A DNA stretch of 64,000 nucleotides from Tetracentron sinense (lineage: Eukaryota; Streptophyta; Magnoliopsida; Trochodendrales; Trochodendraceae): positions 20,467,250-20,531,249 of the forward strand of contig CM026570.1 in the NCBI GenBank assembly GCA_015143295.1. The letters run 5' to 3'. The position numbers and the translations under genes are program-made. Below the pieces are notes generated by a model. It worked only from the letters and a program-made list of their open reading frames with translations. It ran no database searches and was not told the origin of the DNA. Below are positions 5,945 through 43,035 of this stretch, in pieces. Numbering within the stretch: the stretch's first letter is position 1; every line of letters begins with the position of its first letter.

Positions 5945-6160
5945 ACTAATAATCTTTTTTAAGAAGAATATTCCCCTCCTCATACGAGGGAGTGAGTCAT
6001 GTCGCACTCAAAAAGCCCCCTTTAGCTACTATTGAACTCTGGTAAAAAAGGTTTTAACCCATATGGTTATAATTATATTCTAAAAATCAAGGATAGATGC
6101 TTTAACCTTAAGGGTTAGTGAATTTTAACCATAGTTAGAGAGAGTTAAAAGGGGACAAGT
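5945..6160. mobile_element. Left half of a palindromic MITE split by the CACTA element
   Basis: CCCCTCCTCATACGAGGGAG near 5965 is answered, in inverted orientation, by CTCCTCTTTTCATACGAGAG near 24690, directly beyond the right end of the CACTA transposon. The inner part carries TTAACC(A)TAGTTAG-type core sequence. Similar elements occur near 43870-44185. I infer one older MITE into which the CACTA element inserted. Confidence 0.5.
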
Positions 6161-6190
6161 CACTACAAAAAAACTACCGAGCAGTAACGG
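6161..6190 (+). repeat. CACTA left terminal inverted repeat
   Basis: CACTAC start, then GAGCAGTAACGG at the inner edge. It pairs with 24626-24656. CACTA termini are bound and cut by the TNPD transposase. Confidence 0.9.
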
Positions 6191-6655
6191 AATAGTAGTG
6201 ACGGAAATTTTTCCGTCACTAATATTGTACTTATAGTGACGGAAAAGTATGCCATCACTAATGTTTCGTCTCTAATAGGGAATTTGATATTTATTAAAAT
6301 TTTCCCGCATAAATCGAATTTTAGTGATGGAATTATTTCCGTCACTATTAGAAATTAAATAATAGTAACTAGAAAATTGCCGTCACTACTAATATTAGTA
6401 ACGGAGGTTGTGTATGGTAACGGAAAATATTCCGTCACTAAGGGTTAGATTTGATAGTGACGGAATATTTTCCCGCATAAATCGAATTTTAGTGACGGAA
6501 TTATTTCCGTCACTATTAGAAATTAAATAATAGTAACTAGAAAATTGCCGTCACAACTAATATTAGTAACGGAGGTTGTGTATGGTAACGGAAAATATTC
6601 CGTCACTAAGGGTTAGATTTGATAGTGACGGAATATTTTCCGTCACTACTAAGCT
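6176..6655 (+). repeat. Left subterminal repeats with a 168-bp tandem duplication
   Basis: Many copies of AGTGACGGAA and its complement TTCCGTCACT occur, often as back-to-back palindromes. Positions 6304-6471 and 6472-6639 are two almost identical head-to-tail copies of a 168-bp unit starting CCCGCATAAATCG; I saw only a couple of base differences between them (GTGATGG versus GTGACGG, CACTACT versus CACAACT). In En/Spm, subterminal motifs are binding sites for the TNPA protein. Confidence 0.9.
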
Positions 6656-9412
6656 TTACCCGCGAAAATTAGATTGCGATTCCCCAAAATATCTGCTACG
6701 GGTTCCCGCTCTCCTCTTCTCCCTTTATTCTTTCTTCAGTTCGGCAGCAAGAGAAATCTCTCCCGAAATCTCAGTTCGAAGAGCAGCTCCGACTGGCACG
6801 CCCCCATCACCAAGTTCCGGCCGACTCTCCTCTCTCCGGTAGCTCTCTCTCTCTCTCTCTTCCCTTTCTTCTTCTTCTGTTTTATCCATGAAATAGAATA
6901 ATGAAATTTGAGTATAAAGGTAAAAGCATGTCGAAGAAAAATTATCCCCAAACCCTAGCCAAGATTCGTGCATGCTAAACCCAACCACATCATCTTTTTT
7001 TTGAAATAACAAAGGTGCGAACCATTGTTCAGATATCCTTGATCAAAACGAATCCAGAAAGGAAAAATCAGGTCCTAAAGCCTTGGGCTTTCCTCTGAGA
7101 GAGCCTCCTCTCTCTCGCATCAGAAGCTGTTTCTCTCTCTCTCTAGACTAGAAGAACCCAGATCGGAAAGGGCAGAACCAAAGAGCTTGGTTGAAAATAA
7201 ATAAATAAAAATATAAAATCATAGAAGTATTTATGCCAAACATGCACAACGAACATAATCTACAAAGCAAAAGAAAGAAAACCCAATTAATCAACAAAAC
7301 AAAATGGTGTATATTTACGAGCCATAAACAGATTAGTGATTATCATCCCCAAAAAAAATCATTTTAAAGAGAATATAAAAACTTCAAATAACCCACATGC
7401 TGAATTTATTTATTGAGTCTTTAGGTTTATTTTCTTCCATCGACTGTGTTTGTTATTGAGCTATGTACACTGGTTTTCCGGCTACCGTGGTGTTTTTTGA
7501 TGGTACCCTTTTGAGTTTTGAAGTTCCTGTGAAGTGGGTATCTTGATCTGATTGAGTTTTAAGCTGTTTTTCACTTTTTGGGCGATCTAATCGAGGTGGG
7601 TTTTGGATATTCTAAATGGGTTGATTTGATCTTTAAAGAAAATTATAACTCTGGTGTAGATTTAAATTGGGAATTGGTTGTTGCAAGGTTGAAGTTCAAT
7701 AGATGAGGTGAATTAAGAGGATCGGATAATTTTTGACTTCTTTGAATTGGGTTTTGTGGGGTTCTAAATCAATTTTTTTACTAAAAATATCATTTTTTTT
7801 AACTAAAAATATCGTTTTCGACCGCTGCCCCCCCTGCCACCCCCCCGGGCAATCGTAGGGGGGCTCTGCCTAATATTATATATTAAATTTATCGCCTAGG
7901 CATCGCCTAGACGCCTTGACTACACTGATCAAATATCCTTTCTTCTTTTTCATTATTCTCTTCTGGTTTCATGATTCTCTACTGGTTTTGTTTTAATTAA
8001 GTGGATCAACGATGATTCCTTCCCTCTTTTCCTTTTTGTTTGTTTTTATATGTTATTCTTGATTGTTATTTTAGGTTTTTTTTCTTTGAGCGACGAAACC
8101 TTTTTCATTTTTTTATATGTTATTCTTATTTTTTTTTCCTTTGAAGTTTTGCAGTGGTGACATGCAGAGTTTCTCTATTTACAATTTTGCATTTTTTAGG
8201 GTTCCATTCGTCATTGGGGATTCGCAAATTGAAACGCCCAATGTTAGCCATGATTCTAGGATTAATATTTTTAGTTGCATATGCAGAGTTTTCGCCAATT
8301 TAGGGTTTTGGAGTTTTAAATTCGAATTTCAGATTTTATCTTCCAAATCTCATCAGTAGGGGTTTAGGTTCAATTTTTTTGCTACTTTTTGTGTTTGGGA
8401 TGCCCTTCTGATTGATCTTTTTCTCTTTCTTGTTTTTTTAAATTTCTATTGGGGAGAAAAGAGAAAAGCTTATGTCTTTGTGCTTTAAGGCAGGTCTGAG
8501 TTTGTGCATTGCAAGATTTTAAATAAGGTAAGAAAGCTGGATTGGGAAATATGACTATTTTTTAAAAAATTGAAATTTCAATGTTATAGCATTCAAAGAT
8601 CTTTAGGTAATTAGACAATATAGAAATCGAAAGGTGTTAAAAAGAGGGAATAAACCCAATTGCAGAAAACGAGAAATTTTTTTAGTTATATATACATGGA
8701 TGAAATGCCATTTGAGTGGGATGTAAAGTTGTTACATTGTTTTCTACTCATGTTGCAACTCTATTAGGCCGTATAACATGGTCTTGATCCATTTGTAGTT
8801 GGTTATTGTTTAAGGAGTTCTAGTTCATCTGGTTTATTTGTGATGTAATATTTTCCTTGTTCAATGGAAGTCTAGTTCACATGGTTTAATTGGGATTTAA
8901 AAGATGGACCTGCTTCCACTTAATTGATTCTTACTTCAGTAGTGTTTGGAGTTTATTACCTAGATTAAATGCTTGGGAAGCAGAGAAGGGACGGCCAAAA
9001 AATAACATAATAATAAATTTTTGAAGTGGTACCTGACTGCGAGTCCAGGTAAAAACTATTTAGTGATTTTTCATCACTCTAGGGTTTCTTGCTTGGAGTT
9101 AAAACTAATTTTAAAATATGTTTGGTGTTAAAGCCGTTAATGGTTTCTGCAGTGATGGATGGTTTCTTGTTTATAGCAATCATGATTAATGGGATTGAAA
9201 GGATCGTAGCTTGGAGTAAAAGTTTTTATAAAAATTAGGATTGAAAGGATCCTAGCTTATTTGTGATTTCTTTAAAGAAAGAAAATGATGTTGTGAAAAT
9301 TCTTGAGGTTTGGTGTTGCAATGTTGTAAAGGATCCTAGCTTATTCATTATGAGAGTTTCTTTTACTCCATAATTTTTGCAATATCTCTATGTTAAAAAT
9401 CTGTATTTGTTT

Positions 9413-10894
9413 ATGCTTCTAACGATTTATGTTGGTTTGATCTATCTTATGCATGATTTTTACACCCCATTTGCTTCGGATAGAATAATTAGGAATGCTA
9501 AGAAATTATGAATAGTATGAGAATGCTAAGAAATTATGAATAGTACGAGAATGCTAAGAAATTCTCACTTTGAAGTTTAGACTACTTAATTTGACTGGCA
9601 ATTGAACCTAGGGTGGCTTCATTCCCCTATAATTCAAACCTTCTAATTACTTTTTTTTTCTTCTTCTTAGAGTTTAAGAAATTGCATTAAAGTGTATGAA
9701 TCTTAAAGGAGATACTCTCATCCGATTTGCAATTAGATTTAAAACAATGTGCGGTCTTACCCCTAGTTGGGATTTAAAACAATGCGCGGTCTTACCCCTA
9801 GTTGGGGAAGGTATGTCCAAAAAATATAGAATTTGACTTGTTTTCAATCCAATGACCATACCTTTTTGACATTCCCACTTTCTATCCCATCCTCTTGTTG
9901 GTTAGTATTGTGGTCAGATGTTCAAGAGAGCTTCTATAGTAGAGATTCGTTTGATCAATATAACATCCAATTATTTCCTATTTGATATGTTATTCTCAGG
10001 TTATGAATGGAGGACTAAAGAATCAATTATATTCAAATACTAGAGAGATAAGTTGCTGGGGGTAGTTTTATCCGTATAAATTAAAATAGGGAATCCCACA
10101 ACCTTGCTAGGGCTGCTCTTTGATTGACTCTCGGTGAGTCAACCGAACCTTCTAATACCATATGCAATTAGAATTTTATAGGCTCTATACTCGATTGCGA
10201 GCCCCCCTCTGTATGTTTTCTTCTCTTGCTTAAATGATATAGTGGATTGCCAAAAAAAAAAAAAGAATTTATAAAAGGGAGATCCTTTTAAAATTACCAT
10301 TTTTGGTGTGTACTAGTAATTGAATAAGCCAACCTAACAATGCTATAAATAGGACGGTGGGGCCCGTGGGGGCATCGGCCCTTTACATTTATTATTAGGA
10401 ATTGATGGTCGAAGAACTACTACACACAACAAGAGAATCAAAAAATTTCAACTTATTGGGGCCTCCTAGGGAGGGGAGCTCTCTCTCTCTTCATTTTATA
10501 GGATAAGAGAGTGTTTACAGTAACAATGTTGTAAATAGAAATTAGATTTTTGAATGGTAATATAAGGGGTTTGGGGATCACAAGTCATTTTCTATCTATC
10601 TGGTCTGAACTTTTCCTTCCAAGGTAAACACCCACTCTTTATATCTAACACCATTCATCACTCACTTTTATTCAAGATTGGTTCATCCAACTCTTCTCAC
10701 AACAAAGATCCAAGAGTAGTTGAGAGAGAGATATGCTGTATTTTTTTATACTTCTAACGTTTATGTCGGTTTGATCTATCTTATCTATGATTTTTACACC
10801 CCATTTGCTTCGGATGAATAATTAGGAATGCTAAGAAATTATGAATAGTATGAGAATGCTAAGAAATTCTCACTTTGAAGTTTAGACTACTTAA
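9413..10894 (+). repeat. Direct repeat pair with an inner 30-bp tandem unit
   Basis: 9413-9589 and 10749-10894 are near-identical, running from CTTCTAACG...TTATGT to AGTTTAGACTACTTAA. Inside, the unit AATGCTAAGAAATTATGAAT... of about 30 bp is present three times in the left copy and twice in the right copy, which accounts for most of the length difference. Confidence 0.8.
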
Positions 10895-11635
10895 AGAGCA
10901 ATGGGCAATAATTAGCTAACAGATACTTTTTGTGTATGGTCAAGGATAGAACCATAGATCATTTGTTACTTAATTGTCCTCTAGTTAGTTGGATTTATTT
11001 CCATTTCATATCCTGCCAGGGGGTGCATTCCCTCTCAGCTTCAAGTACCTAATCTCTAGTTGGATCTTGAGAGGTGTGGATGCCTCTTTGAGCATTCTGT
11101 GAAGGCTTCTTCTGGGAGCTATTACTTGAGTGTATGGAGAGGAACAGAAGGGAATTTGACAACACCTCCTTTCTAGTTGAGAGAATCGAACACAGAGAAC
11201 CAACCACACACACAACCTTATATTGAAAATCAGGGGGTAGCAGTAGTCTATAACTTGAATAACATAAACCAAATATTTTTTTTGCTTATGACAAAAAAAG
11301 AAGAAATGTAGTCTATGGGTTTAACATTCTAAATATCTGAGTCACTGTATCTAAACTGGAGTTGAATAAGTTGAAGAAAATGATGTTTGAAGTGAATTTC
11401 TTTACAACTTAGAAATGCATATATTCCTATCTCCAAGAACAAAACAATTGGTAATGCGCTTAATATCTGTAGTTCAATCTGCATCTTTTTATCAGTTATT
11501 CCCTTCAAGTTTAAGTAGTTTTTTCATCACCATATTGCTCAAGGTTTTCACTTTTGCAATCAATTATAGATCTTATGCAAATGTTCTTTTTCCTAAGTAA
11601 CACGATGTGTTGTAATATATAAATGACTAATATCC

Positions 11636-11815
11636 AGATTATATGTTGCCAGTGCATGGCATTTTGTGCAGCATTACTGAAGCTGTAAGCAATTGAAAAA
11701 ACTTTAATATGCATATCTAGTTCAATACATGATGCAGGACCACTTGATTATATGTTTCCAATGCATGGCATTACCAATTCAAAAACTTTAATCTGCATTT
11801 CTAGTTCAATACAAT
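11636..11815 (+). repeat. Short partial direct duplication
   Basis: GTTGCCAGTGCATGGCATT... at about 11645 and GTTTCCAATGCATGGCATTA at about 11754 start two related segments. Both continue into AACTTTAATNTGCAT and CTAGTTCAATACA. A third short match (AGTGCATGGCATTACCA) occurs at 20951 within the TNPA intron. Confidence 0.6.
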
Positions 11816-13560
11816 TTATTTCTGGATGGGGTGGGAGGGGCTGTAACAACAATAGGGGAAGGCTGTTGGGGGTGCTACAACAGTCACAAGGGGCTGTAGG
11901 ACAGAGTGGCAGCAAGGACAGAGGTGTGGGGGGTTGCAACTAAGGTGGAACAGCAGGGGAAGGCTGCAGTTATGCTGGAACAGGTGGCTGGGACAAGTAT
12001 GGCAGTGTTGGGTAGCACCTGGGAATAGGGCAGCAATAAGGGAAATGGTAGGTAAGCTGTAGTATTAAGATGAGGGACTATTAGAATGTTGAACTGCTCA
12101 AGGGAGGGGCTGGAGTGTCTTACAGCTACAGGGGAATAGCTGGGGTGGCCTATGGCTAAAAGGGGATGGTTGTAGAGGGGTTGCAGTGACAATATGAAAA
12201 GTGCAGGGGCTGCATGAATACTGTGGCAGCAAGGTTAGATAGGTTTAGGGAATGATATAGGGTTTTGCAATATAAACACGGAAAATAAATAGATGGGACT
12301 TACTTTGTTCGTGTTCGGGAAGACGGTTCGAAAACATTATCCAATAGTGGATCATCCACATTGGAGTTGGTAACACAAATAAAATTCGACGTAGGAATAA
12401 CACGAAGAGCCCCATGCATAAAGGAATCCATTCAGATGGAGGCCTTAAAACAAGTGGTTTAATTGGTTAGATGACTAGAAAAACTAGATTAATTCACACA
12501 CATTGGACATTTCATGGAGTTTGTCTTCCATGCTAAGAAGCAATTCTTAGCCTCGAAAATGTAAATTACCTTGATTTATTGTGAATTTATTTTTGATCCG
12601 CTTTTCTTCACTTATTGTATCACAAACCCTAGATCGTTTTAGTCATAATTTTCTAAATCCAGCAAATTTTATTAGATCAATTTGGTTAATAGTTTTGTAC
12701 ACATGTGAAGAGGAACGCATGGTCCTTTTCTAAGCTGACCGCAATGTCGTTGTGTCCCTTTTAACACAATGAGAAGAAGATGCTATTTTATTATATAGTA
12801 AGGGCCGTGTTACTATGGGAAAAGATGTTTTACTGAAATGTTACGTTTTAATAAATTGGTTGGGGCCACCCCCGAGTTACCATTAAAAAAAATATATTAA
12901 TGGAGCCAAGATCATTGAGGGATCTGTTTTTCTTATATGAATTATGGTCAGTTAAAGAATGAACAACTGTTTATCTTTAAACATCATTGTGTATGTGCAT
13001 GCATTAAAACATAGATCTCCCGTTCAAGCATCGTTGTGTGACAAGTGTTCCTCTTATCATCGAATTGGACGCATTAGTTGTAATTTATGATGTTTAGTTC
13101 CTATGTGGATCAAACATCATATTTAACAATTGATTCGCCATGTTTGTTAAGAGGAGTATTTGTCACCAAATGATTCTTGAATTGTCCGTGTGGACAGTTT
13201 GGGAATGCATAATCCCGAACCACGTGTTAGTTGCTCATGCTTATTCCAGTTTGGGGAAATGTCCGTCAGTCATCCCTATTGTTCTCTGAGTACATATTTT
13301 GACAAGGTGAAATCATTGCACCAAGTCTAAATTGTGTACTTGGAGAGCCTTGGGGAGGTGCTGCCGAAATTTCCACAACTCCTTACTGGAACACTTGAGC
13401 TACTAACTGTTGGGGATTATGTATTTCTGAATGGGATAGGAAAACCCCACCCATTAGTAGTCTTGTTTGATCTTAATCATAGCACATGAATCATGCATTC
13501 CAACTTCGGATATCTTAGTCATTTCTATTGTCTTCTATTACCAGTGATCACTGAAGGAAA

Positions 13561-16500
13561 ATGGTATCCACCATAGATAAAACTTGGGTTACAGCAGATC
13601 GGTTAAGTGTTGCCTATGAACAGGGGGTCAATAATTTTTTGGATTTCACATTGTGTAATACAACTCGAAGTGATGGTAGTATCAAGTGCCCTTGTAAGAA
13701 GTGTTGTAATCGATATTATCATGTTCGTTCATTAGTACAAGAGCATTTGATATGCGATGGGTGGGATAAAGGTTATGCGGCTGGCATGTGGATATATCAC
13801 GGGGAATTTCTGCGGAATAGAGCTTCTTCTGTGCCATTATATGAAGGCAACGCTGGTGAAACATCCCCTCAAGATGATATGCACGGAATGTTGCAGGGGG
13901 CATTCGGGATGCGACGTACTGAAGAAGAGAGAAGTGAAATGCCAGAGAACCCTAACGCGGAGGCGGCTAAATTCTATCGGTTAGTGGAAGATGCTGATCA
14001 GGAGTTATACCCCGATTGCAAGAAATTTAGTAAACTTTCTTTCATCGTTCGGTTATTTCATATTAAGTGTCTGAATGGATGGAGCAACAAATCATTCACC
14101 ATGTTACTTGAATTACTTAAAGAGGCACTACCTGAAGGCGAAACATTGCCTGAGTCCTTCTACCAGTGTAAGAAGATAATTGGTGAGTTAGGTCTTGGGT
14201 ACAGCAAAATTGACGCATGCCCTAACGATTGCATGCTCTTCTGGAAAGAAAATGCAAATAATGTAGCATGCTCTATATGTGGTAGTTCACGGTGGAAAGA
14301 CACACACGACGGTTCAGGCCCTCCGTCATCTAAGAAGGAACACAAAATACCTGTAAAGATTTTGCGTCACTTTCCACTCAAACCTAGACTACAGAGAATT
14401 TACATGTCCAACAAGACAGCTTCCTCCATGAGATGGCATGCAGAGGGTCGCACTAATGATGGAGTGTTAAGGCATCCAGCTGACACTGAATCTTGGCGAC
14501 ACCTTGACGAACAGTACCCGGACTTTGCTTCAGAGCCCCGTAATCTCAGGCTTGGGTTAGCAAGTGATGGTTTTAACCCATTCGGACAAATGAGCATTGC
14601 ATATAGCACTTGGCCTGTTGTTTTGATCCCATACAATTTGCCTCCTTGGATGTGCATGAAACAACCATATTTGATTATGTCTTTACTTATTCCTACTCCC
14701 CGTGCTCCTGGAAATGATATTGACATATACTTACAACCGTTGGTAGATGAATTGACTGAATTGTGGAATGACGGTATTTGCACTTATGATGCATCACTTA
14801 GACAAAACTTTCAAATGAAGGCAGCCTTGTTGTGGACAATAAATGACTACCCTGCATATGCAAACTTGTCAGGATGGAGCACCAAGGGCCGTTATGCCTG
14901 TCCCCATTGCAACCAAGACACATGTTCTCCATACTTGAAACACGGGCGTAAGTTCTGTTATATGGGTCATCGTCGATTCTTGGGGGCTACTCATAGATAT
15001 CGCAAGAACAAACAATCTTTTGATGGCAGGGTGGAACCAAGAACTGCTCCGAAGTCACAAACAGGGTCTGAGCTATTAGAGCAAATGGTCGGTCTGAACG
15101 TCATACTTGGCAAGCATGATTTGAACACATCAAGAAAGAAAAGACCACGTCAGGATAATGTAGAGTATATTGGTTGGAAGAAGGTGAGTATTTTCTTCAG
15201 TTTACCGTACTGGAAACACCTATTAATACGTCATAATTTGGATGTGATGCATATTGAGAAGAATATATGTGACAGCATTGTGGGTACGTTATTAAACATT
15301 GAAGGAAAATCGAAGGATAGCTTGAAGGCTCGTCTTGACTTAAAAGAGATTGGAATTAGACCGACTCTTCATCCACATACAGTGGGCCAGAAAACTTATT
15401 CGCCCGCGGCATGCTTCACGATGTCGGCAGAAGAAAAAAGTTTGTTTTGTAAGGTACTGGCAAGTGTTACAGTCCCGGATGGTTATGCAGCCAACATTTC
15501 ACGGTGCGTAAATTTGAAGGAGTGCAAAATCAGTGGCCTGAAGAGCCATGACTGCCATATATTAATGCACCAACTTCTTCCTTTGGCAGTTCGGAAATCA
15601 CTTCCCCAGGATGTGAGTGGCTCGTTGATAGAGTTATGTGCCTTTTTTAGAGAATTATGCACAAAAGTTGGCACAGTAGATGACTTCACTAAACTTGAGG
15701 CTCGTAGTGCAATTATATTGTGCCATCTTGAGAGAATATTTCCCCCTGCATTTTTTGACATAATGGTGCATTTGGCGATCCATTTGGCCGGTGAGGCAAG
15801 GGTTGCAGGTCCTGTAAATTATCGATGGATGTACCCGATCGAGCGGTAAGTGCAACATATATAATGTATTCACTGCCATTCCGTTTAATGTTAGAGATAA
15901 GCTAAGTAATCACACTTTTTTTCCTGTATCAGATACCTGCATACCTTGAAGTCTTACGTACGCAATAGAAGTAGACCTGAAGGTTCTATTGCAGAGGGAT
16001 ACATTGCTGAAGAATGTCTCACATTTTGTTCGAGGTATTTGGACGATGTTGAAACAAAGTCCAATCGAGTGCCCAGAAATTATGATGACCAGAGCATTGC
16101 AATATATGAAGGACTGCCCATTTTTTCTAGACCTGGGCGTGCTTTGGGAAAGGAGGAGACTATACATTTATCTTATGAGTCCTCCACGCAATTGCATCGT
16201 TACGTGCTCTTTAATTGCCCTGAAGTTGCCCCATTTATTTCGTAAGGACATTGTATGCATTATTTATCTTTTAATAGTAATTTCTATATTAATCATCAGA
16301 CGTAATGTACTTCGTTAAAATACAGGAAGCATTTGGATGAAGTAACACGAGAAAATTGCGATAGACGACAAATCGACATCGAGCGCATCCACACTGATGC
16401 GTTCGCTGGATGGTTCTCGTCAAATGTAAGTTTCAGTCTAATCATTATGTCACACACCTACAAAATAGTAAAATATCTTGACAGTTATTAATGTGTTTGT

Positions 16501-17260
16501 AATTTAACAAAACATGTAAGGTTAACACAAACAGGTTTCTACATTGATTCGTGAAAGTCAAAACCATTTACGTGAAGATCTTATATGGCTAGCACGTGGT
16601 CCTTCGAAGATTGCGAGGACATATCAGAGGTTCATCATTAATGGGTTCAGGTTTCAAACAAAACATATTGACAAGAAGAAGAAGACCTCAAATAGTGGCG
16701 TGGTCGTTACTGCACAAACTACAAGGTTTAAATCTGCGAAGGATCAAACATCGCGGACATGTGATGTTACTTACTACGGTGTTTTGCAAGAAATCGTTGA
16801 GCTTCACTATTATGGTGGGAGAAAGATTGTGTTATTCAAGTGCGATTGGGTTGATGGTATGGCCGAAGTAAGGGGTGTCAAGCAAGACAAGTTCAAATTT
16901 ACGCTTGTTAATCTTGGATGCTTGCTAAATACAAATGAACCTTATGTGCTAGCCTCTCAAGCAATGCAAGTCTTTTATGTCGAAGACCCAGTAGAAACGG
17001 ATTGGCACATTGCTATTCAAATTAAACCCAGAGACTTCTTTGACATGCAAGATGGAATTTATTCCAATATGAGAGATTCATGCCCCGAGACGGATCAACC
17101 AAGCATCGCACAATTGGAAGTCACTGGTGTTGATGTCGATCAGATTACTGATGTTAGGACAAATATTATTGGGACAACTATTGATGTACCTGTAATCATA
17201 AACCAACCTGAGATGTCTGAGTCCGATGAGAATCCCGAAGATGGTGATATGCATGTTTAA
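13561..17260 (+). CDS. CACTA transposase, TNPD/TNP2 type (four exons)
   Basis: Catalyses excision and insertion of the element by binding and cutting the terminal repeats in the nucleus. Exons by reading frame and GT...AG borders: 13561-15845, 15933-16241, 16326-16425, 16535-17260, total 3420 nt (1139 residues), phases consistent at every junction. N-terminal zinc-binding transposase-associated domain (about 1-80: CPCKKC, HLICDGW, WIYHGE). Tnp2/Transposase_21 core with LGLASDGFNPFGQMS (about 335), YPAYANLSGWSTKG and RHNLDVMHIEKN (about 557), blocks that hold conserved acidic residues of the family. DUF4218 spans the exon 1-2 junction (SHDCHILMHQLLP; ERYLHTLKSYVRN; RPEGSIAEGY). DUF4216 lies in exon 4 (NGFRF; TYYGVLQEIVEL; LFKCDW). 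I see no stop or frameshift. ATG at 13561 fits the usual N-terminus of the family. Exon borders need transcript support. Confidence 0.93.
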
Positions 17261-18073
17261 GATGCAAATTGTAATAGTGCTGCTTATTGAGAGTAACACT
17301 GGTTCTTCATCTTTCGTTGTACTGCAAACACTGGATTCTTGTAGCTTCTCTGATGGGGAGTGGACAATTCCCTGAAGAAGTATTTTACACATATAGATCT
17401 CTTTTGAAGTATCTCATGTCAATTCTATTGTCTCTTTTTCAATTTTTTGCTTATATGTATAATCATTTTTAATGCTAATGTATTTCTAAAGGTTGCCGTC
17501 CCTACCAGGCAACCCATTTCCAGAGAGTAAGCTCTATGACAGAAATATTTTTTCACCTTTCTAACATTTAAATGGTTGCCGTCACTACTTCTTCAACCCA
17601 TTTCGTTATTTGATCTATCTATTAAATGAAGACTAAAAATCAAAGAGTATAGGCTTAACTGACCCGTGTATCGGTTAATTCATGTTATTGATATTGTGGA
17701 CCTAAAGTCACTTGCATTGCTTCGAGAGTATATAAAGTTTTAGAGTATAGAAATTTTGCATTAACAAAATGTACCAGGCATGTTCTTTCTCAATTTACTA
17801 ATTCAAGTTCCATCTTGAAATTAATAAGAATAAAGTTAATTTGATGCTTTGTCATGTCATGCTTATTAAAGAGTTTCAGAGTAGTACTAGGTAGTTGGAA
17901 CATTTCCTTGTACATCTAACCTTAATGATATTTTAATTGCAAACACTGTCACTATGAGCACTTCATTTTTGATACTTGAATGTGTTTACTTTTATATACT
18001 GATGTTATCACCATTATTGTTGTTGATTACAATATTATAATTCTCATATCACTCTCACAAGTTTTATACAGGG
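17261..18073 (+). other. Intergenic spacer between TNPD and TNPA-type genes
   Basis: AT-rich, no recognisable coding sequence. It probably holds the 3' untranslated region of the transposase gene (stop at 17258-17260) and upstream or leader sequence of the next gene, or intron sequence if the two genes are alternative splice products of one transcript as in En/Spm. Confidence 0.4.
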
Positions 18074-21000
18074 ATGCAGACATATGGGAAAAGGTCCCAT
18101 CACCGTCAAAGTACCAGTCAGGCTGAGGGATCCCAACATGAACAACATGGGAGTTCTAGCCAGCTTATGGGACCATCTCAGGGATACCCACCATCTCATG
18201 AGGTTGCTCCCGAACCAGACCATCATGAGGCTTCTCCATCATCAGGTTATGAATTTTCATGATGATGACTATTGATTTATATAGCTTGTGAATTTAAATT
18301 GTGTAAATCTGATCAGATTTAATTTGTTTATTGTGTCAAGGTGTCCAGCCACGCAAACAGACCAGGGGTCCGAACAAGGCAATTCCACCACCTTTACCTG
18401 GCCAGGACCGTATCATAGTTCCGATTAACAAAGTGGGACAGCCCACTGGGAATGAAGCGGGGAAACTGTCACGGTTTATAGGTGTTTTGGTGAAGGATGA
18501 GGATATTCTCCCCATCAATTATACGGACTGGCGGCAAGTTCCCAACTCGTTGAAGCAGGGGGTCATGGATAGAGTATTGGTATGACAAAAGTTTGACTTA
18601 TGTCGAAAAAAATTAAGAAATTTTATTTTCAGTACAAACCTTTTGAGTACCTATTTACTTTTTTTTTCCAACATTTTTTAAATATATTATGCCATTCAAA
18701 GATACATAACCATGAATGTTATACATTGGTATTCTAATGAACCTACTTGATGCAGACGGTATTCGACCTCCCCCCGAGAGAGGAGGTCCGGGAGTGGGTG
18801 GACACTAAGACCGATGTGTTGTGGAAGAGCTGGAAGGACAAGCTATTTGCTAAATGGCACAGACCACATCTCTCACTAGATGAGCAGATGACCCTTGTCG
18901 ATCAACGGGCCATCCAATCGCAGTGGAGGGAGTTGGTGGCACATCGGCGTACTGATGAGGCGAAGGTATATCATCTTAATGTATGAAGTTTATATCTATT
19001 TACTCATTCAATATGCAACACCTATTAATATTTGATGTTCTTAACTAACTGTAGGCTATGAGTAGGAGAAACAAGGAGAATAGATCGCAGCTTCGTACCG
19101 CCCACACGGCAGGGACACGGAGTTTCGCCCAGTATAGGGCTGCTGCGGTATGTAGCATTATATTCATAGTTCGGACTCTAGATAATTAATATGATAAAAT
19201 AGAGAAAATAGATATACTTATTAAAAATAGAATTTTTTTTTGATCCTCCAATGGCATTTTCTTTTGATCCTCCAAAGCGAACAGCTTCGATTTCTGTATC
19301 GCACACACATTTGCATCCATGTCCTTGCAACATTGTTCCATACTGAATGAGTTAACATGATTTGTAAAGTTTGTGAGAAAACTTAATTTAGAAAACATAT
19401 AACATGATTTGTAAAGTTTTGTTGCAATTGATGTTAATTATTTCAGGGATAAAATAATCTATTATTTTATGAGAGAAAACACAATTTATACTTACCTAAG
19501 ACTTTACTTAATTTAGAAATATGAATTAGTTGTTATATAGGGCAATGCTAGCCACACCTTGTTTATGGGAAAGATATTTGTAAGGTTTTTAATAACTGCG
19601 AAGATTATTTTATGGAGGAAATGTTCACAAAATGGAGCGACTAATTCCCCACTACTTGATAGATAATAAAATGGGGCGACTATTATGTTACAAACTCTAT
19701 TGAGTCTGTAAATAGCCATATAGGTCCATTCCTTCCCCAAAAAGAAACACTGATCAGTAAGCACCATGAGACCACTAATTGAGGGAACAAATAGAGGTCA
19801 GTTAGTGGCACACCCAACCATTTAATGGCAAACTAACCATATGGTTAATGCCCTAGAAAAAGGTGTATGCCTCGAGTAGGAAAACAATCTAGAAGCATCC
19901 AATCAGAATCCAATAGTGTTGGGATCGGACACACACACCTATTTAGAAGAATCCCCGCATTTTCTGTAATTCTAATTTTCTGATCTTCTTTGTAATTCCC
20001 TTTAGATATAGTTGCCTTGTCCTTTCAATATACTCTAATTTACACCCCAAGTAAAGCACTAGTTTTGTCCCTAACTTCCTTGTCCCTTATAGCTCTTTTA
20101 TGTATGAGTGATGCTTGAAGAATTGGAGGATCGCAGCTAGAACAGCCACAAATGCATCATATATACTAAGCTTTTCACTGGATTTGCACAATAATATTGT
20201 GTTATCACTCTTCCATGATATTAGATTGTTATACGTTCATATGTGTGCATATTATTTTACTTGTTTTGAAATTTTGAATCATCCACATTCAATTCATTTG
20301 TAGTTAGTAATTTGGAAAGAATTAGTAGAAGACACCATAGTCCTCTTCCAAATATGAAGTAAATAATTTGATTTTTATTGTAAACTTTGACTCCCATAGT
20401 CCAAATGGTACCCTTTTAACCTTAGTTAAAAAAAATTTCCCTTCAGTGTACGGTGATGTTTCTTGTTTGATTAAACGACTTCGAGTTTGTCATTTGGGTT
20501 TTGAATGGTTCTTAAATTTTGTGGTTCTGATTACGGACTAAGTTGCTATTTGTGTCCCTAAATGGTGTACTTGGGTTGTAACTTTATCATTAGGTTATAA
20601 AATTCATGAAATAAAGATTAAATGAGAACAAATACTTATAAAAAACAATTTCTTTATGAATTGGAAAGTATTCATTCAACAAGGAGTGAATATTCATTCA
20701 AACAATTTCTTTATGAATTGTTTGATTAAACAATTTCTATATTTGGGTTCTGTTTTTGTAAAAAAAAAATTATAATTTTTTTGGGTTGAATTCCCATTCT
20801 CAGTTATGGGTTCTTGCAATTTACTTTCATTAATTCGTCCTCCCCTTTCAATTTTATTACTTTGTGGGATTCGATTATTTGTTTTTTTAGTCATTGTAGT
20901 CGATATAAAAGTATCATTCTCATAATATAATAATACTAACAAATTCTCCAGTGCATGGCATTACCACTTGTTTATGGGAAATTAAGAGACCTAACCCATA

Positions 21001-23610
21001 CTATATGCTGATTATTAGTAATTGGAGACCTCAAATTCAGAATCTGAGAAAGACAGTGGAGTGGATGTTCAATTGTCTGAGCAGAGCACTACCTACTACC
21101 TTGTGTAGGTGGAAACAAATGTCTCCAACTTGAACTAGAAGATCACTTGGAATTTCAGATTCAACATACCTATTTACAGGACAACCCCACCAATTCAAAA
21201 CTAGAATTTTGATTTCCTATTCAAAACATGTTTTTTCATCCATGTTACAATAAAAAAAACTCTTCTGTTACCACTTTCACTTTGTAACTGCAACATTATC
21301 CATGATCCCATTATACCTACTCGGTTTTTTTTTTTTAAAGGGTTTGATTTAGGTATTGTAGAGGGCAAGATCATATTTGCTGAAATTGTGATCTACTCCT
21401 GTTTGGGAACAGAAGCTAGATTTCCACAGAATTTAGCCGAAACTATACTCCGGATGTTATAGATAAAACTTTGCTTCCAACATAAACTGGAGCCACACTC
21501 CCAATTTCATAGAGCAATAGCAACGTTTGGAAAAGGATCAACTCCCAATTCCAACTGTACTACCAAAAGCAAGACTTTGTATACATTCAATTCCAGAACA
21601 GCTACTCTATTCCTGAATAACAAAATCACAAACCCTCCGAAATGTAAGATGCGGCAACTTCTAAATGCTGCTCATTTGTCCTAGCAATGAATATATCCCA
21701 AAAATCCGACACCATTCAAAGAGAAAACAATATTACTGATCAAAAAAACAATATTAGGGTCCTTTGTCGGAAAATTCGGCCTTGCAAAGAAACTCTCCTT
21801 TAATTGAGTGCAACATATCTTATTAGCCATGTTGATCATATATAGTAAGAAGATCCTTTTTAGTTGAAATTTTGACACTTTCATTTACCTTTCATCCATG
21901 CCAATGCTGCTCCCTTGGGAATGTTTTTCAGTGCCCAATAAAAGTGTGTCAAAACTCTTTATTGAATGAGGCATAGAGGCCACTAGTTAAAAGTTTAGAA
22001 CTGATGCATTCCTTATATCAATGCTAATGTATTGTGGTCATTAGATTTTTCACATTCATCTTGTGAGTCGGTGCTTAATGAGCCAAAGATACAAGTAAAA
22101 TCTAGCGTAATGTGGATTGTGAATACTCACACAATTAACTGCATGGGTAGTCTATACCAAATCTTTATCTGAAAATGCTTGAAATGCTTCTCATATGTGC
22201 ATAAGTGCCACTGTTGTTGCCATTACATTGGACTCTGGGTCTCATGGTCAAGCAAGGTAACAAAACTAAAAGCAGAATTCACTTTGCAGAAAAAGGGTCA
22301 TAAATGTGGCAGCTTGGTTGTTTTCTTTCACAATGAAATCATATTGGAGCACTATCCAGTTTGAAATAGAAAACTTGCCGAGGTTTATTATTCAGCAAAA
22401 GTATCATTCTCATAATATAATAATACTTTTATATCATACCCTCACTTGAAAGAATATTGTATCCTAAAAATTGTGAATTATATAGCTTTTTGAAGACTCA
22501 TGTATCCTAAAAATGACACATTTGATAAATTTTTTACAGAAATTGTTCTACGAATTTTTTGTGAGTTTAATGTATTCCTTAGCCAAACCCAGTTTTTACT
22601 TCCGGGTTTTATATTTAAATCTGCACGTGCCTTGCACGTGCAGGGCCCACTAGTGGTCTGAATAAATGCATAGGTGGACCAGGGAGACGCAACAGTGTCA
22701 CAAGATTTTTAGCACAGCTTAGAAGATTATCAGGGTGTCTCTTGTTTGCACCTCCAAGATTACAAATTCTGTAGAACCTGTTTCATGTAATACCCCCACA
22801 AGCTTCTCACCATAGTTATTCTGTATTATAATTCTCTGTTGTTGAATCATTGAAATAATGAAAAGGGAAAAAAGTTTTTTTTAAAAGGGCAGAAGGATTC
22901 AAGGGTGTAATTTTACCTACTCATAACTATATAATAGAATCCTTTTTATGCATGGTTGAACCCTTTTCAATTGATGTCTAACATTTTATAAATGGTTGTT
23001 TTCATCACGAGGATAGCAAGCCCGGGATCCAGACGGGCAAGAGCCGGACCGCATGCAGATGTATCATATGATGCATATTCGGCGAGATGGGACATTTGTC
23101 GATCAGGCATCAGCTGATCTCTATGTATGCTCTTATCATCACATGATCTAATCGATTGTTCATAAATATCAATTATGTAATTATATATTCATAAATTGTA
23201 ATCACCTAAATTTTGTGTTGCAGACTCAGATGGATGAGCTCGTTAGCCAACATCCGGAGGGGACCACCAGTAGCACTGCAAGGAACGAGGTCTTCACCCA
23301 GGTCATGGGCCCGGACACGCATGGGTGGGTTCGTACATATGGACTGAGTGTTAAACCCTCCCAGTTACACTCTGCAGATTTTGACCAGTGGAGGAGGAGG
23401 GCCGAAGAATTGGCTAGCCAGAACGAGAGTTTGGTGGCTACGCAAGATGAGATGTGGGCTGAGTTGGTTGCCATGAACTCCAGGATGAAGGTGTTTGAGG
23501 ACTGGATGTCCCATATGGGCGGCGCATCACATATCCCCTCCGGATCGACACCTGTCCCATATATGGATCCCGATGCTACACAGACTCCAAATGATACAGA
23601 CTTTTTATGA
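18074..23610 (+). CDS. TNPA-type CACTA protein (Ptta/En/Spm, Transposase_24), six exons
   Basis: Accessory transposition protein; in En/Spm TNPA binds subterminal motifs, brings the ends together and regulates the promoter. Exons inferred from frame and GT...AG borders: 18074-18245, 18341-18579, 18756-18965, 19055-19147, 23017-23124, 23224-23610; sum 1209 nt (402 residues), phases consistent throughout. Family-like blocks: TRGPNKAIPPP, LSRFIGVLVKDEDILPINY and DWRQVPNSLKQGV (exon 2), VLWKSWKDKLF (exon 3), NKENRSQLRTAHTAGTRSF (exon 4), DPDGQEPDRMQMYHMMH and RRDGTFVDQASADLY (exon 5), MDELVSQHPEG and VMGPDTHGWVRTYG (exon 6). Exon 1 (H/Q/S-rich) is the least certain. Intron 4 is 3.9 kb and holds a Helitron end. 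No internal stop is seen in the joined frame. Confidence 0.82.
19148..23016 (+). other. Large fourth intron of the TNPA-type gene
   Basis: 3.9 kb between exon 4 (ends GCTGCTGCG before GTATGT) and exon 5 (after GGATAG). AT-rich, no coding homology seen. It contains a Helitron 3' terminus at 22622-22653 and two copies of a possible Helitron 5' end (20914 and 22404), so at least part of the length is inserted DNA. Confidence 0.65.
22404..22653 (+). mobile_element. Helitron-type terminus (non-autonomous), 5' end uncertain
   Basis: CTGCACGTGC CTT GCACGTGCAG is a near-perfect 10-bp-stem hairpin, followed by GGCCCACTAG and then T. A hairpin a few bases before CTRR, with T next, is the Helitron 3' end. 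A candidate 5' end, TCATTCTCATAATATAATAA preceded by A... is at 22404; the same string starts at 20914, so the element could instead be about 1.7 kb. The similar end at 48604-48631 supports a shared family. Confidence 0.6.
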
Positions 23611-24124
23611 CACACTCTCTCTATGACACTCTGACTTCTCTCTTCTATTCTCAACTCCTCCCTCTGACTTCTCCCCGTACACTTTCTTATTAAAGACCAT
23701 GTTTGTTATGCTCTAGATGTCTCATATTTTACTTCATATGCATATGGATGCCCCATATACTTATTCTACTTTATATCAGTTGTTAGACTAAATGGATGTA
23801 CAGGTTTTTTTATTGAACATGTTGAATGAACAAACAGGTTGAAAATTTGATTGTTTTGTAGGTTGAGGTTTTCGGTTGAAAATGTGAATGGATGGATAAT
23901 GTGAATGCATGGATCGATGTATAGGTTGAAAATTAGATTGCGATGTACAGGTTTTATACAGGTATTGATTGTAGGTGTTCGGATTCATATACAGGTACAA
24001 GTTGCAGGTATCAAGATGGGTCATTTGTTGAAAATGTGAATGGATGAAAATAATTGATTGCAGGTTTTGTATAGGTACAGGTTTTATACAAGTGCTGATG
24101 TAATAGATTTTAAAAAAAAAAAAA
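23611..24124 (+). other. 3' flank of the TNPA-type gene
   Basis: Starts just after the TGA at 23608-23610. AT-rich with loose repeats of GTATAGGTACAGGTT and TGAATGGATG (23810-24100); no coding homology. Probably contains the 3' untranslated region and polyadenylation site. Confidence 0.4.
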
Positions 24125-24656
24125 ATTATTAGTGACGGAAATATTTCCGTCACTAATACCTCAAGCTAATTAGTGACAGACATATTTCCGTCACTAATAC
24201 TTTAATAGTGACAGAAAAGTTTCCGTGTCTAATATATTGAATAGTAACGGATATATGTCTGTCTCTAATGTTATTAATAGTGACGGACATATTTCTGTCA
24301 CTATTGCATTACTAGACACGGAAATATATCCGTCACTATTACATATACTAGTCGGCGCAAAAATTTCCGTCACTATTAAGGTATTAGCGACGGAAATATG
24401 TCCGTCCCTAATAGTGACGGACATATTACCGTCACAAATTCGTTTCCGTCACTAAATTTTGACTTGTCATTAGTGACGGACATTTTCCGTCACTAATTAG
24501 TGACGGACATATTTTGCCGTCATACCTTTAGCCACAGCAGCAATTGAAACGGATTAGTGACGGATATATTTCCGTCACTAATAGTTTTAGTGACGGATAA
24601 TCGACTATTAGTGACGGAAATATTTCCGTTACTGCTCGGGTAAATTTCTTGTAGTG
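24125..24656 (+). repeat. Right subterminal repeats and terminal inverted repeat of the CACTA element
   Basis: A dense array of TTAGTGACGGAAATATTTCC-type palindromes and half sites runs from 24130 to 24635, denser than at the left end, and closes with the inverted repeat 24626-24656 (CCGTTACTGCTCGGG...TTGTAGTG). ORFs in this stretch are only translations of the repeats. Confidence 0.9.
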
Positions 24657-24730
24657 AGTGGCAAGTTTAAGGGGGCAAGAGGGCTCACTCCTCTTTTCAT
24701 ACGAGAGGGGATTACTTTTCATCATTTAAG
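24657..24730. mobile_element. Right half of the MITE split by the CACTA element
   Basis: Begins with the AGT target duplication, continues into GGGGGCAAGAGGGCTCACTC and CATACGAGAGGGGATTACTT. It pairs as an inverted repeat with 5955-6020. Together with the left half it explains the immediate flanks of the CACTA insertion. Confidence 0.5.
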
Positions 24731-26497: not shown

Positions 26498-27832
26498 TCA
26501 AGTTGAGTCAAAAGTATTTTCATCTTCCTTTTTTACCCTTGATTGGATCCCATAATACCCAACGTACCATTTGACGAACTTCCTCAACCCAGTAGCCAAA
26601 TCGGTGGTGGGCTTGTACCCAAAATCCTCATACGCCAGGCTCACGTTAGCGTGGGTGAAGGGTACGTCCCCGTTTCTAGGCATCTTAATCACATGCTTCT
26701 TCGCCTTCACGTTCAGCAACCCTTCAAGAATCGCCACTAGTTTCGCCACCGACACCGGCGACGTGTTCCCAAGGTTGTAGATTCGAAGTTGCGCCGGAGC
26801 TCTCTTCTTCCCGCCGCTGCCGGTGCTCTTCTCCGACGTGTCCAAAGCTCCGAGACACCCCTTCACGACGTCGTCGATGTACGTGAAATCCCGAGCCACG
26901 TCCTTCTCGTCGTGAGTCTTGTATATATTAATCGGTTTTCCCTGTAATATATCTTTCGTGAAGAAGAAATACGCCATATCTGGCCTTCCCCAAGGACCAT
27001 AAACGGTGAAAAATCGCAACCCTGTAATGGAAAGACCGTATATGTGATTATATGTATGAGCGATTTCTTCACCGGCTTTCTTCGTTGCTGCGTAAAGACT
27101 CGCCGGTTGATCTGTCCGGTGCAATTCTGAAAATGGGTTCTGGGTATTGAGTCCGTAAACGGAGCTAGACGAAGCCCAGACAATTGCCGGCTGGGGTTGG
27201 GCAGATTTGGCGATCTCAAGCAAATTCACCAACCCAGCAATGTTGGAACTAATATAGGACTGTGGGTTTCGCATGGCGTACCGTACACCGGCCTGAGCAG
27301 CGAGATGAAGAACGTGAGTGAAAGGAACTACGTCGAAAAGCTTGGATAGTAACGGTCCATCGTTTAAATCTGCTTCAACGATGAAGATCTGATGCTTTGA
27401 AAGAAGGGCTTGACGGGCACGTTTCAAGGATGGATCGTAGTAGGAATTGAAGTTATCGAGGCCGAGAACTCCGTCACCGCGTTTCTTCAAGGCGAGAGCG
27501 CAGTGGGAGCCGACGAAACCTCCGGCGCCGGTGACGAGAACGGAGAAGCCGTTTGGGCGGCGGGGAGTGGAGGAATGGCGGACTTGTTTCTCCCAGGAGG
27601 CGCCGGAGCCGTAGAAGGCGGAGGAGAGGAATTTCTGGTGGTGGTGGGGATTATCGGAAAGTGGGGGGTAATTTAGGGTGAAGAAGAAGATGAGAACCAG
27701 AGCAATGAGAAGAGTGGCTCGGAAGAGGAGGTTCGATGATGCGGCTAGGAGCTTGGTGCTGTGTACGCCTCGGAGATAGCTGTTATAGCGCTCGAGCTTG
27801 GAGGTCTTGCTTGTATCTAGGGGAGGCGCCAT
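26498..27832 (-). CDS. GAE6: UDP-glucuronate 4-epimerase (GAE6 type)
   Basis: Interconverts UDP-glucuronate and UDP-galacturonate, the activated sugar for pectin synthesis, in the Golgi. 444 residues, close to the usual length. A basic N-terminus is followed by one membrane segment (about 36-54, FRATLLIALVLIFFF), a type II Golgi anchor. The extended SDR catalytic domain follows: NAD-binding GxxGxxG at 102-108 (TGAGGFVGS), FTHVLHLAAQAGVRYA, WASSSSVYG (about 219-227), catalytic Y247-x3-K251 (LYAATKK), GLRFFTVYGPWGRPDMA, and the C-terminal NLGNTSPV and GYKPTTDL blocks. Intron-less, as plant GAE genes usually are. The N-terminal TSKTSKLERYNSYLR matches the GAE6-type subgroup as I remember it. No damage seen. 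This is the only clear host gene here; assignment to GAE6 rather than a close paralogue is by memory of the N-terminus. Confidence 0.95.
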   Translation of the reverse strand: MAPPLDTSKTSKLERYNSYLRGVHSTKLLAASSNLLFRATLLIALVLIFFFTLNYPPLSDNPHHHQKFLSSAFYGSGASWEKQVRHSSTPRRPNGFSVLVTGAGGFVGSHCALALKKRGDGVLGLDNFNSYYDPSLKRARQALLSKHQIFIVEADLNDGPLLSKLFDVVPFTHVLHLAAQAGVRYAMRNPQSYISSNIAGLVNLLEIAKSAQPQPAIVWASSSSVYGLNTQNPFSELHRTDQPASLYAATKKAGEEIAHTYNHIYGLSITGLRFFTVYGPWGRPDMAYFFFTKDILQGKPINIYKTHDEKDVARDFTYIDDVVKGCLGALDTSEKSTGSGGKKRAPAQLRIYNLGNTSPVSVAKLVAILEGLLNVKAKKHVIKMPRNGDVPFTHANVSLAYEDFGYKPTTDLATGLRKFVKWYVGYYGIQSRVKKEDENTFDST

Positions 27833-27960
27833 TAATGGAAATTGAAGGTTTTCTTTGAGCCTGCCCTGAGATAAGAAGAGTCCGGAGAGATAGATATAAA
27901 TGTTATATAAAGGTTAGAGAGAGAAAGAAGAGAGAGAAGGTGGGACAAGTGAGATTAGTG
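27833..27960 (-). promoter_or_regulatory. Core promoter and 5' leader of the GAE gene
   Basis: On the minus strand, TTATATAA (27903-27910) lies about 70 bp upstream of the ATG. A pyrimidine-rich patch sits just upstream of it on the minus strand (complement of AGAGAGAGAAAGAAGAGAGA, 27915-27945), a common plant core-promoter feature. This implies a short leader. No other regulatory site is claimed. Confidence 0.55.
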
Positions 27961-36222: not shown

Positions 36223-37075
36223 TCGCTAAAAGTACTTTGACCCATAACTATTCAAATATCATTAGCGACGGAAACCTCATTTTCTGACGAAATTTGTCAA
36301 TTAGTGACAGATCATATCCGTCGCAAAATATTTTTTTTATCGACAGAATATATATCCATAACTAAATAATTTTTAACTGAGGGAACTTTTTTTTTTTTTA
36401 TTGACAATACAATATTTTATTTTCATATCACAATCAATTAGCAATTGGTCTTAACAATTAGTAATTACCAAAATCAATTAAAAATTAAATAAATCTAATT
36501 AAAATTAACAAATAAATAATCTAATTAACAACTCATAAAATCAATTAACAATTTGAAATAAAATATAGTTAACAATAAAAAAAAATCACTATCCAAGAAG
36601 AGAGAGAGAGAGAGACATGTCTCTGTGCAATGAGAAGAAAATAGAGAAAAGAGAGAGACGTAGACCTTATAGATAGAGCAGAGATCAGCGGTGGCAGGAG
36701 GAGGTCGGCGCAGTGCAGCGGCAACAACGACAAGAGAACTAGGGACAAAGAAAAATCACGAGGCAAAGTAAATTTTTGCAAATAATTAAGGATTTAAGCT
36801 ATCGTCATTAGCGACAAATGATATTCTATTGCAATATTTCCTTAATTAGAAATGGATATATATCAGATTCCAAAAATATATTTAACGAACAAAAACTCTC
36901 CTTCAGTAAATATAATTTATATTAGCGTCCAACATTTTTTATCGTTAAAAATAATTTATATTAATGACTGTAATTATCCGTCGTTAAACATTTTACTTTT
37001 AATATCTTATTTTAAAATTATTATTATGGTCAAGGAATTGATAATTAGTGACAGAAATATACTATATTTTCTATA
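36020..37075. mobile_element. Decayed DNA-transposon-like region with GCGACGG/CCGTCG motifs
   Basis: Repeated motifs such as TTAGCGACGGAAACC, CCGTCGCTAA-like and TAGTGACAGAAATA occur in both orientations at the two sides of an AT-rich core, like subterminal repeats of CACTA-type elements. I could not find intact CACTA ends. The right part is duplicated at 41930-42770. A GAGA run (36598-36617) lies inside. Confidence 0.4.
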
Positions 37076-37077
37076 TG

Positions 37078-37345
37078 TAATAGATAAAGGTGGATCGAGC
37101 CATGGAGGGCAGGGCCCTAATTCGGCCTATATTCGAGCCAAGCTAAGCTAAACTTTGGCCAAGCTTGAGCTTGGTTTGAACATGTTTGAGTTCATCTTGA
37201 GTTTGGTTTGAGCTTGATTCGAGCTCAAATGTTCAAGCTTGAGCTTGGCTTGAACAAGTTTGATCAAGCTCGATCTTGAACTTGATTCAAGCTTGAGCTA
37301 ACCTAGCATTCAAGCTGAGGCAAGCTTGGGTTGGCTCAAGCTTGT
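37078..37345. repeat. AAGCTTGAGCTTGG-type degenerate repeat (copy 1)
   Basis: Built from short units such as GAGCTTGGTTTGAAC and TTCAAGCTTGAGCTTGGC. The counterpart is 42770-43035. The sequence starts AAAGGTGGATCGAGCC; near 43545-43575 an inverse GAGCTCACGAGCCACCTT is present, which may be the other end of the same element in copy 2. Confidence 0.55.
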
Positions 37346-41889: not shown

Positions 41890-42769
41890 GATAGATTTTT
41901 GTCAGTGAAGCCACAAGAATCTTGACACAAAGTACTTTGACCTATAACTATTTAAATATCAGTAGCAACGGAAACCTTATTTTGTGATGAAATGTGTCAA
42001 TTAGCGACAGAATATATCGGTCGCAAAATATTTTTTTTACCGACGTAATATATCCATCACTAAATACTTTTTACTGACTGAACTTTTTTTTAATTGACAA
42101 TACAATATATTTTTTTTCATATCACAATCAATTAATTATTGGTCTTAACAATTTGTAATTACCAAAATTAATTAAAAATTAAATAAATCTAATTAAAATT
42201 AACAAATAAATAATCTAATTAATAACTCATAAAATCAATTAACAATTTGAAATAAAATATAATTAACAATAACAAAAATACTATCCAAGAAGAGAGAGAG
42301 ACATGTCTCTGCGCAATGAGAAGAAGAAAGAGAAAAGAGAGAGACGGAGAACCTACAGATAGAGAAGAGATCAACGGTGGCAAGAGGAGGTTGGCGCAAT
42401 GTAGCAACAACAACGAAAAGAGAGTTAGGGACAAAGAAAAATCACGAGGCAAAGTAAATTTTTACAAATAATTAAGGATTTAAGCTATCGTCATTAGCGA
42501 CAAATGATATTTTGTTGCAATATTTTCTTAATTAGAAATGGATATATATCTGATTCTAAAAATATATTTAACGAACGAAAACTCTCCTTCAGTAAATATA
42601 ATTTATCTTAGCGACCAACATTTTCTATCGTTAAAAATAATTTATATTAATTATTATAAATATCCGTCGTTAAACATTTTACTTTTAATATCGTATTTTA
42701 AAATTATTATTATGATCAAGGAATTGATAATTAGTGATGGAAATATACTATATTTTCTATATGTAACAG

Positions 42770-43035
42770 ATAAAGGTGGATCGAGCCATGGAGGCAAGGC
42801 CCTAATTCGGCCTGTATTCGAGCCAAGCTAAGCTAAGCTTTTGCCAAGCTTGAGCTTGGTTTGAACATGTTTGAGTTCATCTTGAGTTTGGTTTGAGCTT
42901 GATTCGAGCTCGAATGTTCAAGTTTGAGCTTGGCTTCAATAAGTTTGATCAAACTCGAGCTTGAACTTGATTCAAGCTTGAGCCAACCTAGCATCCAAGT
43001 TGAGCCAAGCTTGGGTTGGCTCAAGCTTGTTTCAA
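42770..43035. repeat. AAGCTTGAGCTTGG-type degenerate repeat (copy 2)
   Basis: Counterpart of 37078-37345, with the same order of GAGCTTG and TTCAAGCTTGAGC units. ORFs here are translations of the repeat. Confidence 0.5.

Follow-up and report, generated by a model that had tools for sequence, protein, structure and literature searches.

A full-length CACTA transposon with two open genes in Tetracentron sinense, and relatives that appear to combine parts of different subfamilies

We analysed a 64,000-nucleotide stretch of the Tetracentron sinense genome, referred to here as the window (assembly GCA_015143295.1, contig CM026570.1, forward strand; C20:20467250-20531249 in the notation used below for other copies). 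Positions 6161-24656 of the window are, with very high confidence, one full-length CACTA (En/Spm) cut-and-paste DNA transposon of 18,496 bp. All the hallmarks of the CACTA superfamily that we tested are present: the ends, the 3-bp duplication, the subterminal motifs, a TNP2 transposase and a second protein of the TNPA/TNP1 type. The element is a well-preserved specimen of an ordinary type, with two unbroken genes and many relatives in the same genome. What is new here is the history of the family, in which two relatives (C2 and C16:2.24) appear to join a foreign 5′ module, left end included, to a coding core like that of the window element.

Termini and limits of the element

The outer bases of the element are CACTACAA at the left and TTGTAGTG at the right, and AGT flanks both, at 6158-6160 and 24657-24659. 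The left terminal inverted repeat (6161-6192, forward strand, CACTACAAAAAAACTACCGAGCAGTAACGGAA) starts with CACTA and the right one (24625-24656, reverse strand, CACTACAAGAAATTTACCCGAGCAGTAACGGAA when reverse-complemented) ends with TAGTG. Counted by eye, the two share 29 of 32 positions and need a single 1-base gap; a MAFFT alignment placed a longer gap.

A genome-wide search for other copies, proposed in the first-pass annotation of this DNA, was run on 1,161,278,568 bases in 1479 contigs. Only the best candidates of each search were scored, and all copy counts are thus lower bounds. The best 40 of 1901 candidates were scored for the 5′ query and eight of those fetched; for the 3′ query the best 40 of 428 were scored and 30 fetched. 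Including the window copy itself, all eight fetched 5′ ends have the start base in common (CACTA in seven, CAATA in one) and 29 of the 30 fetched 3′ ends reach the identical last base. When the window copy is set aside, 7/7 5′ ends and 28/29 3′ ends share its limits.

The two flanks were also joined and used as a query (best 40 of 3382 candidates scored), and the five best other places were fetched. All five span the junction without the element and carry one triplet where the window has two. This triplet is never AGT (CGT three times, TGT and CAT once each), and in four of the five it ends in GT; numerous further matches among the 40 scored end at the junction. These unoccupied sites belong to a dispersed repeat whose paralogous copies here are 79-82% identical; they back the limits of the element and give no insertion date. 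Insertion into the dispersed repeat would have produced the 3-bp AGT duplication, a feature claimed earlier from the window alone and now borne out by the AGT on both flanks together with the single triplet at the five unoccupied sites. It is very improbable that the two inverted ends come from different elements and that the 18.5-kb span is a chance composite: intron 4 of the TNPA-type gene does hold other inserted DNA, but the AGT/AGT flanks, the unoccupied sites and a sister copy, C8a, with an equal layout across 17.5 kb all speak against it. A composite of two insertions was ruled out by the alignment of the unoccupied sites.

Inside the ends lie two subterminal arrays, at 6196-6651 (palindromic AGTGACGGA..TCCGTCACT sites) and 24126-24637. 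The repeated site is a palindrome of about 26 bp, TAGTGACGGAAATATTTCCGTCACTA, with arms GTGACGGA and TCCGTCAC. With up to 3 mismatches allowed, TAGTGACGGANNTNTTTCCGTCACTA has 14 distinct sites (26 strand-wise matches), all within 6196-6648 or 24130-24634; the pattern is confined to the first 490 and last 530 bases of the element, occurs nowhere else in the window, and had zero sites in each of 100 shuffles of the 64-kb window. Within the left array a 168-bp unit is tandemly doubled (6296-6631). By analogy with the known family, a TNPA-type protein may bind these palindromic sites near both ends and draw the ends together, and a two-gene element of this kind is usable for tests of such binding. 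The inverted ends, the AGT on both sides and the arrays at both ends, as first described, are all present in the sequence.

Two open genes

The TNPD gene (TNP2 type) has 1139 codons open in four exons on the forward strand (13561-15845, 15933-16241, 16326-16425 and 16535-17260), with GT-AG introns and a terminal TAA. Its product carries four Pfam domains, all of which exceed the curated cut-offs: exon 1 holds Transpos_assoc, Transposase_21 (PF02992; 342.3 bits, cut-off 28.6) and most of DUF4218, and exon 4 holds DUF4216. Comparison of exon 1 with solved structures returned nothing at E up to 0.1. As in known members of the family, the predicted transposase would cut at the CACTA/TAGTG ends by means of its TNP2 domain.

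The TNPA-type gene has 402 codons open in six exons, also on the forward strand (18074-18245, 18341-18579, 18756-18965, 19055-19147, 23017-23124 and 23224-23610), with GT-AG introns and a terminal TGA. The 3′ limit of the first coding exon and the 5′ limit of exon 2 were set by hand, the boundary being shifted one base from a non-canonical scripted one to give GT-AG with the protein unchanged. The match to Transposase_24 (PF03004; 97.4 bits, cut-off 28.7) starts at residue 192, close to the end of exon 3. A splice-acceptor-like TATACAG directly precedes the first TNPA codon, and it is therefore possible that a spliced leader is joined to TNPA, as in En/Spm. Both frames had been proposed in the first-pass annotation, the first at 1139 residues across four exons and the second at 402 residues across six, and both proved open and supported by Pfam. 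The ends, the frames, the domains and the limits of other copies also agree with its identification of the stretch as a complete CACTA element bearing genes of the TNPD and TNPA types.

Filler and the length of the element

The element owes its large size to filler, located in the 5′ leader and TNPA intron 4; no extra genes that would account for it were seen. The long leader region (6660-12290, forward strand) is a type-1 5′ module, in place of which some relatives have a type-2 module. No frame of at least 180 residues was found in the leader up to about 12.3 kb, and within the whole element the two TNPD exons are the only frames of that size, although the leader may hold captured fragments of host genes. 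A 601-bp leader probe matched over its full length at seven of the best 40 scored places, the window copy included.

TNPA intron 4 (19148-23016, forward strand, 3.87 kb) is filled differently from copy to copy. Positions of about 19531-22341 are unalignable to C8a, and another copy, C23, aligns to 20907 and resumes at 22438, leaving 20908-22437 unaligned. The breakpoint at which C8a, C2 and C8b each diverge from the window falls at about 19527-19540, and past it the DNA of C8a differs from that of C2 and C8b, which resemble each other. The stretch at 20902-22435, unaligned in C23, has 13-bp inverted ends (GATATAAAAGTAT) and, immediately internal to them, an exact direct repeat of 31 bp.

Relatives in the genome

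Six copies were compared at both ends: the window element (18,496 bp), C8a (17,467 bp), C2 (15,455 bp), C16 (7,563 bp), C24 (5,381 bp) and C4 (4,894 bp). Flanking triplets match in four of the six, being AGT at the window element, GTA at C16, ATG at C4 and TAT at C24. A DNA search with TNPD exon 1, in which the best 40 of 1067 candidates were scored, gave 39 other copies at 88-99% identity. By this one identity column, rather than by a tree, they were divided into group A (97-99%, n = 7), group B (95-96%, n = 22) and group C (88-92%, n = 10).

Four fetched group-A copies carry window positions 12.3-19.5 kb at about 98% identity, and in two of these, C8a and C8b, identity to the window rises to 99.8% across 580-600 bp from 12161. 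Of the full copies found, C8a is nearest, with 98.2% identity in its longest block of alignment and 97% at each end; among the best 40 scored for each, the highest identity of any other 5′ end is 96% and that of any other 3′ end 95%. That the window copy is itself a patchwork, produced by recombination or gap repair among subfamilies, seems unlikely. Its relatives are mosaic in the 5′ part and the intron 4 fillers vary between copies at roughly one place, as such a patchwork would suggest, but C8a resembles the window at 94.8-99.8% in every fully aligning 600-bp bin from end to end except in intron 4, and the flanking triplets of the window copy match. TNPA exons 5-6 and the 3′ untranslated region are also 93-98% alike among the compared copies, and strong divergence among them is therefore limited to the 5′ module and the 3′ subterminal array. 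A well-bounded element with one open sister helps to annotate this genome.

Two relatives repeat parts of the TNPA-type gene. At C9:13907705-13908328 and 13910127-13910750, two matches to TNPA exons 2-3 lie about 2.4 kb from each other, possibly an internal duplication in one relative, and at C5:7507000-7519000 the TNPA 3′ part (window 22438-24162) is present twice, about 5.4 kb apart.

Putative hybrids between subfamilies

In the two putative hybrids the 5′ module is 95-99% identical to the group-C subfamily and the coding core 98% identical to the window element. C2 (7.53-7.55 Mb) shares a 3.5-kb 5′ segment with C24 at 98.3%; against the window this segment is 82-83% identical in its first 313 bases and mostly unalignable past the first 0.6 kb. 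Three probes from C24 cover it: the first 989 bases (best 40 of 455 candidates scored), the next 601 (29 scored) and the next 1801 (best 40 of 137 scored). Bases 1-653 of the first probe match C16:4.74, C9:0.135, C21:18.27 and C9:26.05 Mb at 96-98%, and bases 828-989 match at 99%; the group-C loci have no match to bases 654-827 and are longer there. Against the window element, C8a, C16:31.4 and C4:49.1, the same probe reaches only 81-83% over the outer 311-454 bases. Eight places of the 29 scored, C24 itself included, match the 601-base probe at 99-100%, either in full or with two bases left uncovered. The 1801-base probe is matched at 99% by C9:26.05, 98% by C2, 96% by C16:4.74 and C21, 95% over bases 1-1399 at C9:0.137, and in two pieces of 99% and 98% at C16:2.24.

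The coding sequences downstream of this module are of two kinds. At C21:18.26, C9:26.05, C9:0.14 and C16:4.74 Mb the module lies upstream of TNPD exons 91% like those of the window, and at C2:7.54 and C16:2.24 Mb it lies upstream of TNPD exons 98% like them; a further module locus, C2:2.13 Mb, was left unassigned to any TNPD copy. Window positions 12320-13000 are present at 98% in C2 and C16:2.23, beginning 24 bases past the end of the 1801-base probe, and the four group-C loci are absent from the best 40 scored matches to these positions. C24, a deletion derivative without TNPD, has the module followed by 121 bp of window 12320-13000 at 99% and then jumps to window 22929, all between two TAT triplets. 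The simplest reading would be that the hybrid formed once and that its deletion derivative moved later. The hybrid may have originated by ectopic recombination or by template switching during gap repair.

On balance we think it fairly probable that a 5′ module of about 3.4 kb, comprising the left inverted end, the subterminal array and the leader, was exchanged between subfamilies that differ by 9% in the transposase exon. The hybrid would then have stayed mobile, so that the proteins of one subfamily could act on a borrowed end, with the shared palindromic subterminal site as the recognition code that permits this. The likeness to group C reaches the left end, which gives this exchange more weight. 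Some points limit this reading: flanking triplets do not match at C2; for C16:2.24 and the group-C loci, the ends were taken from match lists and not from extracted sequence; and the join, seen at three loci (C2, C16 and C24), presupposes a correct assembly there. Very unequal rates along an element of single origin are a formal alternative to hybrids, the comparison being one of identities and not of trees.

The 3′ subterminal array likewise occurs in two types. C24 and C8b are 97.5% identical to each other and 88.5-89.8% identical to the window element, C23, C8a, C4 and C16, and C2 is intermediate at about 93-94% to both types. None of the group-C loci is among the best 40 scored 3′ matches. 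A limited literature search found no description of CACTA hybrids of this kind, which does not imply their absence in print. If confirmed, they would let one ask directly how tightly a CACTA transposase depends on its own ends, and how new subfamilies arise.

Integrity, selection and activity

Five group-A copies (the window copy, C8a, C8b, C2 and C23) were read exon by exon. TNPD is open in the window copy and C8a and has stops and indels in C8b, C2 and C23. TNPA is free of in-register stops in the window copy, C8a and C2, and has one stop in C23 and two stops with an altered splice acceptor in C8b. Both genes are thus open in two of the five copies, or one of the four sisters. It is not unusual for TNPD exon 1 to be open: by hand count, 29 of the 60 matches listed, the window copy included, span from residue 5 or earlier to residue 760 or later without a stop. 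The window element is probably one of several copies still able to make both proteins.

Rates of nonsynonymous (dN) and synonymous (dS) substitution were compared at two depths of divergence. Between TNPD exon 1 of the window and that of one open group-B copy (C3), dN is 0.023 and dS 0.120, a ratio of 0.19 (binomial p ~2e-14), and TNPD was held by purifying selection over the longer term. Several observations count against the element as described here or against its present activity. Within the closest group, dN/dS relative to the window rises to 0.51-0.73 for TNPD and 0.50-1.05 for TNPA. The TNPD ratio for C8a is below 1, but not significantly so (p 0.15), and recent selection therefore lacks support. 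No near-identical full copy was found among the scored candidates, which speaks against present activity; the two largest sisters, C8a and C2, have no matching flanking triplets; and the 3.87-kb intron 4 may impede splicing.

The first-pass annotation had suggested that the element could be autonomous or recently active. With both frames open and canonical splice sites, the sequence is compatible with autonomy, and this part of the suggestion stands at that strength. Recent activity is weakly supported: the closest full copy found is 98.2% and the best other ends 95-96% identical; short stretches reach 99.8%. TNPD dS between the window and its four close relatives is about 0.019-0.026. Plant genes accumulate substitutions at a rate near 7e-9 per site per year, at which a dS of 0.02 would represent a time on the scale of a million years or longer.

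Within the reading of a full-length CACTA element, and not in opposition to it, we slightly favour the view that the element, complete in sequence, is now silent or immobile, its frames being open because movement ceased recently in evolutionary terms. The distance of about 2% to the nearest full copy, the TNPD dS and dN/dS values for the four close relatives, and the stops or frameshifts in TNPD in three of those four are consistent with this view; the open frames and splice sites of both the window copy and C8a, and the purifying selection in the deeper history, argue against it.

Comparison with known elements

En/Spm of maize and Tam1 of Antirrhinum (TNPD/TNPA; TNP2/TNP1) resemble the window element in their CACTA ends, 3-bp duplication, subterminal repeats and TNP2-type transposase with a second protein. 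Both are shorter than the window element. For maize Spm, the relevant passages of PMC8195511 state that both proteins come from overlapping, alternatively spliced transcripts, and they also describe lettuce LsC1, with statements on tnpD/tnpA. In the consulted sections of PMC2613891, the second protein of En-1 belongs to PF03004, as does the TNPA of the window element, and the En-1 subterminal motif is 12 bp long, unlike the palindrome of about 26 bp with GTGACGGA arms seen here; according to the same sections, the subterminal repeat motif varies between elements in general.

These sections also describe Tgmt* of soybean, a 20.5-kb putative autonomous CACTA (PMC2613891), and the earlier placing of 18.5 kb at the large end for the superfamily was overstated. 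Like the window element, Tgmt* is very large, encodes two functions and has subterminal repeats able to form stem-loops; it differs in having one 24-exon gene with tnp2 and TNP1 domains, where the window element has 4 + 6 exons, PF03004 and another repeat motif. For the ancestor of plant CACTA transposases, at least four exons have been inferred, with most boundaries downstream of the DDE motif (PMC4158355, in the portion consulted), and the likeness of four-exon plant transposases to the window TNPD is one of exon count only. Chenopodium CACTA elements have the domain order of the window element, TAD-Transposase_21-DUF4218-DUF4216-Transposase_24, and some add Peptidase_C48 (PMC8978399, likewise in part), a domain that the Pfam scan of the window element's proteins did not find. 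Domain order and exon number have thus already been published (PMC8978399, PMC4158355), and, within the parts of these sources consulted, no feature of the window element was seen outside the published range except its own repeat motif.

Neighbouring features of the window

The right end of the element lies about 1.8 kb beyond the stop codon of a 471-residue frame (stop to stop) at 26498-27913 on the reverse strand, which has NAD-dependent epimerase domains (Pfam Epimerase, 163 bits) and which resembles a plant UDP-glucuronate 4-epimerase. The same series of short tandem repeats occurs in direct orientation at 36390-37225 and 42145-42910, about 5.69 kb apart, and could represent the two long terminal repeats of a retrotransposon. 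An open 180-residue frame at 63298-63840 on the reverse strand has no Pfam match at E 0.01; judged by eye, it is similar to a retrotransposon gag. Further tandem arrays are found at 55991-57140 (123-bp unit), 57409-57695 (64 bp) and 59077-59407 (38 bp).

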